Positions 53,371-63,420 of a stretch of DNA of 64,000 bases are shown in pieces. Where the stretch lies: assembly GCA_033220425.1 (NCBI GenBank), contig CM065652.1:4340001-4404000 (forward strand), written 5' to 3'. Within the stretch, counting starts at the first letter, position 1. Each line of letters begins with the position of its first letter. A program made the position numbers and the translations under genes. Below the pieces are notes generated by a model that was not told the origin of the DNA, searched no databases, and saw nothing but the letters and a program-made list of their open reading frames with translations. Origin of the DNA: Lepraria neglecta. Lineage: Eukaryota > Ascomycota > Lecanoromycetes > Lecanorales > Stereocaulaceae.

Positions 53371-53696
53371 TATATCCACACGCTCCGCGCGATTGTTGTT
53401 GTTTTCGTTGTGGGTATACTCTGTCAACACCCACACATACCATTTCTGAGGGCTCATTACCCTCATACCTCGCACCATGGACCCCTTTCGCTTCCAAAAT
53501 CAGGTAGAAAGGAGGCGTAGACAGCACCTTGAGAACGGTAAATGTCCCCGTTACAATGCCATCGTCGCTTTCACTGACCAAGAATCGCGCGTGTAGCGGC
53601 GGCCTTCGCCCGGCGGCGGCAGCAACAGCAGCAGCTAGACAAGTACCAGCAGTGGCAGTACCAGCAAGTGCAGCAGCGGGCATGGCAGCAAGCCCG

Positions 53697-53742
53697 GCAA
53701 GCCCAGCAAGCCCAGCAAGCCCAGCAAGCCCAGCAAGCCCAG
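53697..53742 (+). repeat. 9-bp tandem repeat (CAGCAAGCC)
   Basis: Five to six units of CAGCAAGCC directly precede the hexanucleotide tract and would encode Gln-Gln-Ala repeats in the element A frame. Confidence 0.85.
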
Positions 53743-53930
53743 CACCAGCAACAGCAACAGCAACAGCAACAGCAACAGCAACAGCAACAGCAACAGCAAC
53801 AGCAACAGCAACAGCAACAGCAACAGCAACAGCAACAGCAACAGCAACAGCAACAGCAACAGCAACAGCAACAGCAACAGCAACAGCAACAGCAACAGCA
53901 ACAGCAACAGCAACAGCAACAGCAACAGCA
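53743..53930 (+). repeat. (CAGCAA)n microsatellite, about 31 units
   Basis: A near-perfect hexanucleotide tract of ~185 bp. It reads as poly-Gln in one plus frame, Ala-Thr in another, and poly-Leu on the minus strand. The high purity points to recent expansion. Confidence 0.95.
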
Positions 53931-54292
53931 ACAACGACAACGACAGCAGCAGCAGTAGCAGCAGCAGAGGGAGGCGAGGGAGAGGGAGGATACGGAGATG
54001 GAGCTTGTGCATATTGTGAGGGCGGGGGAGGAGAGGGGGTTTCAGGATGGGATAGAGGCGGGGAGGGAGATGGAGAGGGCGGAGAGGGCGGAGAGGGAGG
54101 AGAGGGTGAGGGAGAGGGTGGCGTGGAATGCCGCGAGGCACCGCGTGGTATGTTATGTGGTGCTGTGGTTGCTCTGGCTGTGGGTTGTCTGGCGCTGAGA
54201 GAACCAGTGGTACGAGGTGCCGGTGGACTTTTTTTAAATTCGCGACGATAGGCTACTCTATAGCCAAATGCACTTGGGTTCGATCCCTATTT

Positions 54293-54595
54293 TAACCGCG
54301 TCAAGCTCGTGACTTTCGTGATTGTCTCATGGTCGACTCTCTGCTGGTGTCTGCATTTGCGTGCTCTTTAACGACAGCGTCCTTACCCCCTTACCCTCGA
54401 CACCCCACTCATATGTGGCTTCACCCTCTGAAGGAGACCCAATGGATTTACAGAACTGGTTCGCCTCTGCTCTGAGATTGTCACCACTTGCTCGCCCCAT
54501 AGTCTTTCGTCCTGCATTGATGTCGATCACTGAAGACAAAAGGTGCACTTCCAAATCAATTCCACAACCAGGAGAGCTAGCACGGAGGTAACAGT
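54293..54595. other. spacer between element copies A and B
   Basis: About 300 bp between the 3' ends of copies A and B, which face each other. Short frames only. Confidence 0.4.
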
Positions 54596-59957: not shown

Positions 59958-61172
59958 ATGCCCAAATGCAAAGCCTCAGGCGATCGATCAGGAAATATTA
60001 TAGCTCTCGAACTAGACGAAGAGCAGATAGCAGCGTTGCAGCTAATACCGGACATTTTGCATCCCAGCCTAAAATGCCTGGTGCCGGTCCTCGATTCGAT
60101 ACGCAAAGCCTACAGCGATATAATTCCACCTCATAGGAGAGCTTTACCGGTAAATACTGTCATATTATATGATCAGAAGGCTATACTGACATTCTAGCAG
60201 ACTCGTCAAGCGACCGAGTTCAAGCGTACTACCGCTGCGGCCAAAGCGCTCGATATTGATTTCAAGGAAGATAATATGTCATACGTCTTTACTCTTAAGA
60301 CCGAGCATCTGCAAGATCCCAGGCAGATATCTAAGCATTTTGGTAAGTATTTGTTATACTCAGGATATTCTGGAAGCTAAGATTTATAAGCTTCCGTGAT
60401 CAAAGATCTCAAAAGCAGCGACTATGTCAGTGTACGACACGACGAATCATTCTGCCGAACTGTACTCGATCTTATTATTATGGACCGTCTACGTCATTTG
60501 GAAGATAGAGATACACATCATCGATTACAAGTATCTGCAGAAGTCCCTGTGGCAATACTCGTCAAAGATATCTATGGTAATAATGAGATGGTCAAGGGCA
60601 GAGCAGACTGGGCATTGGGCTATGGTGCCGACAAGAGTGATACGGGTGCTATTCTCCTCATTGTAGAGGCGAAACCTTACGAGTCTGCTCCTATAGGGAT
60701 GCCTCAGCTAGTGGTATATATGGCTGCTGTGCATAAAGCAAGACAGAACCGGGTCAACAAAAGTGTCTTTGGGATGGTGTCTGATAGCAAGGAATTTCGC
60801 TTCGCTTTCCTTGATGAAAAGAAGAAACTTTTTACGACACCGCCATTTACTTGGATGATCGAGCAGTCAACAATTATCGCCTACATCGATATGATGCTAA
60901 TCAACGCTATCGAATCATCCCCAAATACCACACCCCAGAAGATAAACAACCGAACCATCTATAGATATCCCGAACTTTTGGGAAGGCAATGGAAATTTGG
61001 ATATGAATCGGATGATGGAGGGGCGGCGGAGGAGGAGGATGAGGATGAGGATGAGGACGAGGAGGAGGACGAGGAGGAGGAGGAGGACGACGACGATGAC
61101 ATGGTGGATGTAGTTAATATTGGTGGCCGTGTGACGATGAGGCATCATGGCAGGTTGAGATCCACAGGCTAG
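59958..61172 (+). CDS. PD-(D/E)XK nuclease-like protein with acidic tail
   Basis: Three exons (59958-60149, 60198-60342, 60391-61172) give 372 aa; both introns are 48 nt. The second half has the nuclease-superfamily core: RHDESFCRTVLDLIIMDRLR (helix with the early acidic residue), LQVSAEVPVAI, GRADWALGYG with Asp185, ILLIVEAKP with Glu205 and Lys207, then PQLVVYMAAVHKARQNR with the usual Gln, and VFGMVSDSKEFRFAFLD. The C-terminus holds about 25 consecutive Glu/Asp residues (GAAEEEDEDEDEDEEE), encoded by GAG/GAC repeats. This type is often expanded in fungi and related to nuclease domains in effector-like and mobile genes. The role is unknown; catalytic residues look intact. No signal peptide. 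Confidence 0.75.
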
Positions 61173-61391
61173 CACAATAAAAACAAAAAATTCAATTCTG
61201 ATATGATTCTGTAAGGAGTGAGAAGGCCTCGTAAAACAGAGTCGAGACCATCTCAAACCGGCTGCCTTCTCACCTGCACACAAAGTATCCGCGTCGACCC
61301 TTGACATCATCAAAAGCCGCCTTACCGCAATAGGAAGCATAATTGACCTCTGCTACCCGACTCGCATTTCTCACAGCCCTCCCTACTCAAG

Positions 61392-62431
61392 ATGGGCCCA
61401 AGCCCACCCATCCCACCATCCTTCATAGCAAAGAAGAATGCTATTCTCACCTCCCTGTCCGTCCCCGACGATGCTTACACCGACCTCTCCCCCAAAGGCA
61501 CTGTTGACGAAGCCTTAAAGCCTCTGATCGACCGCATCAATGCCTTGGAGGGTATAGTGACTACAAGCTCTTGCTCTGGGAGAGTCAGTGTGTTTCTGGA
61601 GGGTAGCAAAGGTGGAAACAGGAAAGGGAAGATCGACGATCCGGAGACGGGGACGTGCGAGAATGCAGAAGGGCAGGCCGCAGTGCCTGGAGGTAAAGGC
61701 ATGGGAGGGCGATGGCTTTTCGTGTCCCATGAGCCCGTACATTTTAACCAGGAAGGGTCCTATCTAGCTACGCGCTTAGGCATGTCATACCAACTAGAAT
61801 TGTACGATTACCAAAAAGATATGGACATTAATCAAGTGCGACTTGCGAGATTCCAATTCGAACCTATGGTGCGTAGAGCAATCAGGCATACGTCTATGCT
61901 GCCTTGTTCGTGACAGAAGTCCCCGAATTGATGTAGACGTAGATCCTCCACGTAACGACCGCCTCCCTGCACCACGCCCAGCCCATCCTTGCCGCAGCCA
62001 TCAATGCTGGTTTCCGAGAAAGCGGTATCCAGAGCCTGAAGAACTTAGATGACGCCAAAGCTTTTCCCATGGTCGCGATTCGCTCGTCCGGTCTAGCGCT
62101 GGAGTCAATAGTAGGCAGTATGCGGGACTGTATGGAGGATCTAGGAAGCCTGAGCGAGGACAATGGTGGATATTCGAATGATGAGGAAGTTCATAGTTTA
62201 GTCAGGGAGGACTATCTGGATCTGTTGATCAAGCTCGCGAATGAGAGGTTCAAGACCAATACGGAGAGGATGAGGAGGTTTGAAGAGGATTTGTTTCGAA
62301 GGGAAGGAGGGTCGGCGTTGGGATCGCCGTGGGAAGATGGCAAAGATAGACAGGAGAGGAAGAGAGCTGAGGGATTGAAGCAGCAAGAAGAATTGCGTAG
62401 GAAGAAAGTCGACGGTAAAAGGGGAGTTTAA
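61392..62431 (+). CDS. tyw3: tRNA wybutosine-synthesizing protein 3
   Basis: Two exons (61392-61868, 61943-62431) give 321 aa; the intron starts GTGCGT and ends CGTAG, joining EPM|ILHVTTAS. TYW3 landmarks: FIAKKNAILTSLSVPD, the block INALEGIVTTSSCSGRVSVF, GGRWLFVSHEPV, QVRLARFQFEPMILHVTTAS, AAAINAGFRESGI and MVAIRSSGLALES. The enzyme N-methylates the wyosine precursor at position 37 of tRNA-Phe. The C-terminus is a charged helix (ERFKTNTERMRRFEEDLFRR). The stop TAA at 62429-62431 lies inside the T-arm-like end block of repeat copy C, so the last residues (KRGV) may come from the element. Confidence 0.9.
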
Positions 62432-63420
62432 CCCTAGCGTTTGGCTACACAGTAGCCCGTAGTCATCGAAAAAAGAAAGAAAAAAACAAGAATCTCTCCT
62501 CCCTTCCCCCCCAACCTCCTCCTTTCCCCCCCCCCCCCCCCCCCAAACCACGCGCAGAAGCCCGCACACAGCACCAGGTACACAAAAATCACCGTCTTAT
62601 ACACCTCGTCCCACTCCGCCCCCTCCTCCTCCCTCTCCCGTATCCCCAACATCCTCTCCCCGCCTATGAACCCTCCACCAACAGCGCCATCGCCCTCCCA
62701 ATCTCCCTCTCCCTCTCCCTCTCCTGCCCTGGCCTCTCCTCCTCCTCCCTCTCCCTCAGCTCCCGCAGCCCCTGCTTCCTCAACACCTCATTCTGCGCCT
62801 CCGCAGCCGCTAAACGCGCCATACCTGGTCAGTGAAAGCTTCAACACCATTGTGATGGGGTCATTTACCGTTGTCATCGCGCTGCCACCTCCTCCTTGCC
62901 GCCCGCGCCTGGTTGCGAATGTAGGTTTTTTTGAGCCTGGTTCATGGCTGTGTGAGGGTAACAAGCCCTCAAGAATGCTATATGTGAGGGTTGAGAGAGT
63001 GAAAGCAACGACAACAATAACAGTGTGGAGTGGCAATATCAATACTACCAAGCGAGTTAATCTGCGTCGATATACCGAATATTCACATTTGATATTTGAG
63101 ATATATATTAGAATAGGCGCGACAACGTTAGTCTCTACCGCAGCGAAACCACTTCGGTAGCTGATACCAGGTGTTTCTGAAACCTCGCGACGCTAGCCAC
63201 GTCAAAAGGATGCGTCTTCGGACGAACAATCACAAGTTGTGGGTCGCATTGTGAAAGCCGCGGCCGACCCCGGCAGGGTGACGCCAGGATATCTTTGCGG
63301 AGGGTTAACCAATCCCAAGAGTAAGAAGCCTATGGTTCACCATATGGTTCCTTCTCTTTTGCCGTTCTCGGACACTGGAGATCGCGGGTTCGATTCTTGC
63401 CTAGGCACCCGTCTTTTCTG
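62421..63420 (-). repeat. element copy C, minus strand
   Basis: Reading leftwards from 63420: a tRNA-like block (63330-63405, with GGGTTCGATTC), sequence shared with copy B (AACCAATCCCAAGA, then CTTTTGCCG), a TATA-like stretch near 63095-63115, the T-arm hairpin at 62954-62970 (GAGGG stem, loop CTTGTTA), an ATG at 62945, an intron at 62825-62868 (GTAAAT...CACTGACCAG), the frame MARLAAAEAQNEVLRKQ with Arg/Glu repeats, and a membrane-like segment (VYKTVIFVYLVLCAGFCAWF). The end has a hairpin at 62443-62457 and a T-arm-like block (62421-62436) overlapping the tyw3 stop. The opposite strand carries an open frame (62666-63160) that is Pro/Ser-rich. Confidence 0.65.
62526..62544. repeat. poly-C tract (about 19 C)
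   Basis: A pure homopolymer just after the membrane segment of element C. Its length is prone to sequencing error. Confidence 0.9.

Follow-up and report, generated by a model that had tools for sequence, protein, structure and literature searches.

What kind of unit occurs three times within 10 kb of one chromosome of the ascomycete Lepraria neglecta, each time with a short hairpin ahead of a start codon and another hairpin at its end? The units, here called copies A, B and C, all lie between positions 53371 and 63420 of the window, a 64,000-nucleotide stretch of contig CM065652.1 (C7:4340001-4404000), which was analysed together with the genome it comes from (42,023,604 bases in 11 contigs). 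An earlier note on this DNA had seen in them a family with tRNA T-arm mimics at both ends and had offered three interpretations, namely a tRNA-derived mobile element, a fast-evolving gene family and a selfish gene. Judged from the sequence, A, B and C are probably small spliced genes that form a local, lineage-specific family, itself probably in decay, in which leader and 3'-end blocks have been kept. A gene family is the best-fitting of these interpretations because A and C have a common intron with splice signals; a mobile element found no support, and the observation behind the proposals was confirmed in part. A limited, general literature search did not find the family described.

An apparent intron common to copies A and C

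Copies A and C show 69% identity in an alignment of 222 nt (BLAST, E 8e-20). The aligned bases of the inferred 59-nt introns are identical at 46 of 59 positions (best of 30 shuffles, 0.60), those of exon 1 at 39 of 61 (best of 30 shuffles, 0.57), and the head block at 23 of 29. By sequence, A and C thus appear to have a common exon-intron structure, which was not found in B. Copy B is joined to the family only through its tail (63 nt matching the tail of C at 76% identity, E 3.8e-6), the stem of its 5' hairpin and a pair of short upstream stretches (21 and 19 nt) that are colinear with C (E 5e-4 and 0.004). BLAST of its exon 1 against exon 1 and the intron of A or C returned 0 matches, and the sole match in this part of B was the low-complexity Gln tract of A (E 0.007). 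Of the common order of parts ascribed to all three copies, the A/C homology and the presence of hairpin stem and tail throughout hold, and exon 1 of B is without a match to exon 1 or the intron of A or C.

Under the gene-family reading, one small spliced, lineage-specific gene would have been duplicated only within this 10-kb stretch, after which the copies diverged fast. The ancestor may have encoded a short protein whose first exon was basic and whose middle was of low complexity, either charged or rich in Gln; the protein perhaps ended in a hydrophobic segment. The 5' hairpin might act in the leader next to the start codon, and the tail might mark 3' ends where genes converge; the function of the protein would probably be lost or fading, the short signals persisting.

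Hairpins at both ends

The 5' hairpins, with stem GAGGG(7 nt)CCCTC, differing loops (CTCATTA in A, TTCGAAT in B and CTTGTTA in C) and an ATG 12, 12 and 8 nt downstream, are present in all three copies as first reported (Table 1). The perfect motif occurs in the window at the family sites only (3 occurrences). With the following A included and up to 1 mismatch allowed, the window has 8 matches, 6 of them in the family hairpins; a total of 8 was reached in 1 of 100 shuffles. The hairpin shape alone says little, because the window has 23 instances of a perfect 5-bp stem enclosing a 7-nt loop and followed at 6-14 nt by an ATG, and the family hairpins make up 5 of the 23 counts. A genome-wide pattern search with the head (up to 3 mismatches) retrieved A and C, missed B and gave 0 control matches.

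The terminal hairpin GGCTA...TAGCC followed by GGGTT was likewise found in A, B and C. The window holds four such tails rather than three: one each in A and C, and two in tandem in B, the second of which had gone unmentioned. Their mean column identity is 80%. Allowing up to 2 mismatches, the tail stem gives 8 matches in the window (4 sites on both strands), a number that 0 of 100 window shuffles reached. In the 42.0-Mb genome, GGCTA N3-5 TAGCC N4-16 GGGTT has 6 matches, of which four are the family tails; the other two have unrelated flanks, and their number is that of the reversed control (2). A longer tail pattern (up to 3 mismatches) found nothing in the whole genome beyond the four tails, with 0 control matches. 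Together with the A/C alignment, these counts show that the family is genuine. Taken as a pair, the tails of A and C are identical at 36 of 50 positions (0.72), and 30 shuffles reached 0.74; because shuffles exceed this identity, the case for the tail is carried by the four copies jointly and by the genome-wide counts. A tail model run on the window, its contig flanks and three viral loci recovered the four tails at E 1e-17 or better and nothing else below E 0.5 in the window or in 27 kb of flanks (9 kb upstream, 18 kb downstream).

Beyond this genome, the tail core was found in three viral contigs, with tail-model E values of 1.9e-7 to 2.2e-4 that mostly reflect the core having selected these contigs; none of them carries the GGGTT block or yields a tRNA call. 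In two similar contigs (L059:5466-5529 and L060:308-371) the match continues a few bases past the core, one reading GACTAT with an extra T. We take the viral matches as chance, although the additional match in L059 and L060 is not fully explained. In bacterial and archaeal genomes 70 stretches fit a pattern and 0 were confirmed, and a search of the PDB gave a single match (E 0.86).

A possible alternative: signals without genes

Could the conserved parts be DNA or RNA signals, such as a TFIIIC B-box boundary or a 3'-end processing element, with the reading frames incidental? A and C are indeed more alike in head, intron and tail than in exon 1, and the tails seem to sit where transcription units converge, a position that would fit a 3'-end signal. 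The B-box motif GGTTCGANNCC occurs three times in the window, each time at this locus, and 2 of 100 shuffles reached three. Against this, two of the three B-box matches, being homologous tails, do not count separately, the B-box pattern is matched neither by B's second tail nor by that of C, the A/C tail identity is within reach of shuffling, and the common intron implies spliced mRNAs. TFIIIC-only B-box sites are represented in yeasts by the ETC (extra TFIIIC) and COC (chromosome-organizing clamp) sites. The likeness here is a GGTTCGANNCC-like sequence between genes, scored as a motif only; unlike such sites, the tails are attached to a gene-like unit, and those of C and of B (second) misfit the motif.

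Folding and stem pairing also speak against this alternative. Among the seven head and tail stretches folded, two had z below -2 (A head, -2.96; second tail of B, -3.29) and the other five ranged from -0.36 to -1.23. In the tail alignment, the share of cells that pair is 92.5%; column shuffles give 91.3% and slid versions 30-47.5%, an excess over the latter being expected anyway because the structure came from the same sequences. Since 0 of 10 stem pairs change on both sides (in four sequences, which are few and make this weak), selection on shape, which the invariant 5' stem had seemed to suggest, is not shown, and pairing does not exceed the column shuffles. On balance we consider signals with incidental frames unlikely, if still deserving some weight. 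Less probable again is a bolder reading in which selection acts on the noncoding parts (leader hairpin, conserved short intron, and tail of hairpin plus B box), which would work in cis as one unit at the ends of convergent genes, whose own proteins would not be needed from the copies; were a noncoding reading true, it would point to a cis-element at such gene ends.

The search for further copies and the resemblance to tRNA

A mobile element would be expected to have left copies elsewhere. Whole-genome queries with the three copies as DNA, with protein pieces of A and B, and with head, intron and tail patterns turned up no family copy outside 53371-63420. As DNA, A retrieved C and C retrieved A, and B retrieved itself only; the protein pieces of A and B matched only themselves. 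The intron pattern (up to 3 mismatches) gave 6 matches, A and C with 0 mismatches and four with 3; the four were taken as chance, as the control gave a similar number (3). The weight of these searches rests on the A and C DNA queries and the patterns, because the B DNA and the A and B protein queries missed known copies; as the search tool moreover scores the best candidates only, strongly diverged copies may exist. A lack of further genomic copies, which the earlier note had itself named as evidence against its proposal, is accordingly what these searches returned.

The resemblance to tRNA is partial. T-arm mimics had been claimed for both ends: at the 5' end the claim holds for the hairpin of B (one of three) and not for the loops of A and C, and at the 3' end GGGTTCGA stands in three of four tails, those of A and both of B, that of C reading GGGTTAAA. 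One tRNA gene in the same genome has a T-arm that the 5' block of B matches at 19 of 19 nt, and the best T-arm match of A's tail and of B's first tail is 15 of 16 nt; the comparison set was incomplete, consisting of 24 tRNA matches from 63 of 1294 candidates scored. The tail hairpin of A also has a 16/17 match about 100 nt past a tRNA-Gly gene (E 0.08), the GGGTT block being absent from the adjacent flank as displayed. At default thresholds, with or without introns allowed, 0 tRNAs were called in the window; with thresholds lowered to 90% and introns of up to 3 kb ARAGORN made 20 weak calls there, 4 of which run into the copies. No tRNA match was among the Rfam matches listed, and a relaxed Rfam search gave three matches, none of them anywhere near the cut-off; two fall on the 5' hairpins of B and C as read on the + strand. 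The spacing from tail hairpin to T-arm-like block is unlike that of a tRNA, judged by the usual tRNA geometry, and no tRNA-like head with both an A box and a B box was found. A block like a tRNA 3' half (GGAGATCGCGGGTTCGATTC), apparently of the tRNA-Glu kind, lies at 63360-63410 (+), where C has its outer edge on the other strand; it has no match elsewhere in the genome.

If the copies were what is left of a non-autonomous mobile element that had tRNA-like ends and inserted at gene ends, this would account for the start of A at the stop codon of one gene and the overlap of C's tail with that of another, as well as for the 19-nt T-arm identity, the recurrent GGGTTCGA and the lowered-threshold tRNA calls that run into copies. 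Two overlapping A/T-rich inverted pairs near both ends of C (arms at 62468-62492 and 63421-63441) might be added, whereas 0 of 13 inverted pairs in 53300-56000 have arms at the ends of A or B. This reading is left unsupported because no family copy was found outside the stretch; the default tRNA-calling and Rfam results and the intron common to A and C also argue against it, and we regard it as distinctly improbable. The tRNA-derived mobile element first proposed is accordingly not borne out. Among the systems to compare are short interspersed nuclear elements (SINEs): fungal tRNA-related SINEs, such as AfuSINE2 of Aspergillus fumigatus, are 140-493 bp long, with RNA polymerase III promoter features and target-site duplications (PMC5063351). 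Low copy number, tRNA-like sequence and gene-rich surroundings are common to these SINEs (PMC5063351) and the present units, which differ in measuring about 1 kb, in the intron of A and C and in that no complete tRNA-like head was found. Nor was the dispersal of a tRNA-derived SINE seen in the genome, all copies found lying in 53371-63420.

Reading frames that look broken

On the models tried, 0 of 3 copies has an intact reading frame, with stops at 53956 in A, 55073 in B and 62876 in C. With its inferred intron removed, A encodes 140 residues, 95 of them Gln, up to the stop at 53956, the same frame then being open to 54196. A motif scan upstream of the in-frame stop of B found no donor. In C, the parts similar to A fall in different frames. 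Judged in this way the coding frames of all three copies look broken, although other splicing could make a frame whole. Searches of Pfam up to E 0.1 with six pieces of the three copies, in their own frames, gave 0 matches. The hydrophobic C-terminal segment that had been ascribed to each copy scores 1.50 in A, 1.91 in B and 1.99 in C, and higher values occur in other frames of A (1.82) and B (2.08), which means that it is not specific to the frame; 70 of 470 open stretches of at least 60 residues in the window, the family included, reach 1.6 or more. A further feature of A is its long CAGCAA repeat at 53686-53967, with 37.8 copies of the hexamer at 53740-53966; its length may change rapidly from strain to strain.

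A fast-evolving, locally duplicated selfish gene such as a spore killer would agree with the rapid divergence, the local copies and the lack of a Pfam domain, in a general way only; positive evidence for one is absent and the frames tried are broken, and we consider it very improbable indeed. Orphan gene families of filamentous fungi are typically short, of low complexity and without a known domain, duplicate locally and decay rapidly. A, B and C resemble them in all these respects and differ in having a coding body that is less well preserved than their leader, intron and tail blocks.

Several points weigh against a decaying gene family. Beyond the tail, the stem and the short blocks B cannot be aligned to A or C, and the upstream identity of B and C (0.507) is within the range of 20 shuffles (mean 0.432, maximum 0.515). 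Base composition may have given rise to the Gln tract and the hydrophobic end as by-products. The gene models are conjectural, with splicing of another kind able to restore a frame, and it is odd that all three copies should be broken and the signals kept. If the gene-family reading is right, this is one more local orphan family, and one that shows how the short signals of leader and tail can persist while the coding body decays.

Setting of the locus

Copies A (+) and B (-) are laid out tail to tail with a gap of about 300 nt (Table 1), and the edges of the copies are not sharply defined. Immediately upstream of A lies a PF07757 methyltransferase gene, presumably of the TRM44 type (51448-53370, stop codon 53368-53370). 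The TYW3 gene (61347-62431) has its stop codon (62429-62431) overlapped by the tail of C on the other strand, and its end may have been altered when C arrived (stop codon inside the C tail, 62421-62431). The copies are thus flanked by two probable tRNA-modification genes, which is probably a coincidence. Indices of repeat-induced point mutation (RIP) gave no clear sign of it in A, B or C relative to the window: TpA/ApT is 0.90, 0.70 and 0.86, respectively (window, 0.67), and a second index 1.59, 1.31 and 1.13 (window, 1.35).

Table 1 Positions of the three copies and their parts in the window.
Feature	Position	Strand	Remarks
Copy A	53371..54292	+	Starts right after the methyltransferase stop codon
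Copy B	54596..55640	-	Tail to tail with A
Copy C	62421..63420	-	Convergent with TYW3
5' hairpin of A	53448..53464	+	GAGGG-7-CCCTC; 12 nt before ATG at 53477
5' hairpin of B	55188..55204	-	T-loop-like loop TTCGAAT; 12 nt before ATG
5' hairpin of C	62954..62970	-	8 nt before ATG
Exon 1 of A (inferred)	53477..53537	+	61 nt; short basic peptide
Intron of A (inferred)	53538..53596	+	59 nt; donor GTAAAT, branch CTGAC, acceptor TAG
Exon 2 of A	53597..54198	+	Gln-rich repeat, charged stretch, hydrophobic end; in-frame stop 53956-53958, next 54196-54198
ATG frame of B	55071..55175	-	34 aa; ends at in-frame stop 55073-55071
Open body of B	54698..54985	-	Open frame, 96 aa; charged, with hydrophobic end
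Exon-1 region of C	62869..62945	-	ATG frame stops at 62876; A-like frame without ATG
Intron of C (inferred)	62810..62868	-	59 nt; donor, branch and acceptor as in A
Tail of A	54241..54292	+	Hairpin and GGGTTCGATCCC block; pattern, alignment, tail model
First tail of B	54647..54699	-	Overlaps stop codon of B's open body; pattern, alignment, tail model
Second tail of B	54590..54641	-	In tandem with the first; pattern, alignment, tail model
Tail of C	62416..62468	-	Block GGGTTAAACTCCCC; overlaps TYW3 stop codon; pattern, alignment, tail model

Other genes identified in the window are a Rad21/Rec8 gene and a protein kinase gene. Short tandem repeats with TCC, GGA and GAGGAC units occur in neighbouring genes at 58364-58434 and 61017-61100.

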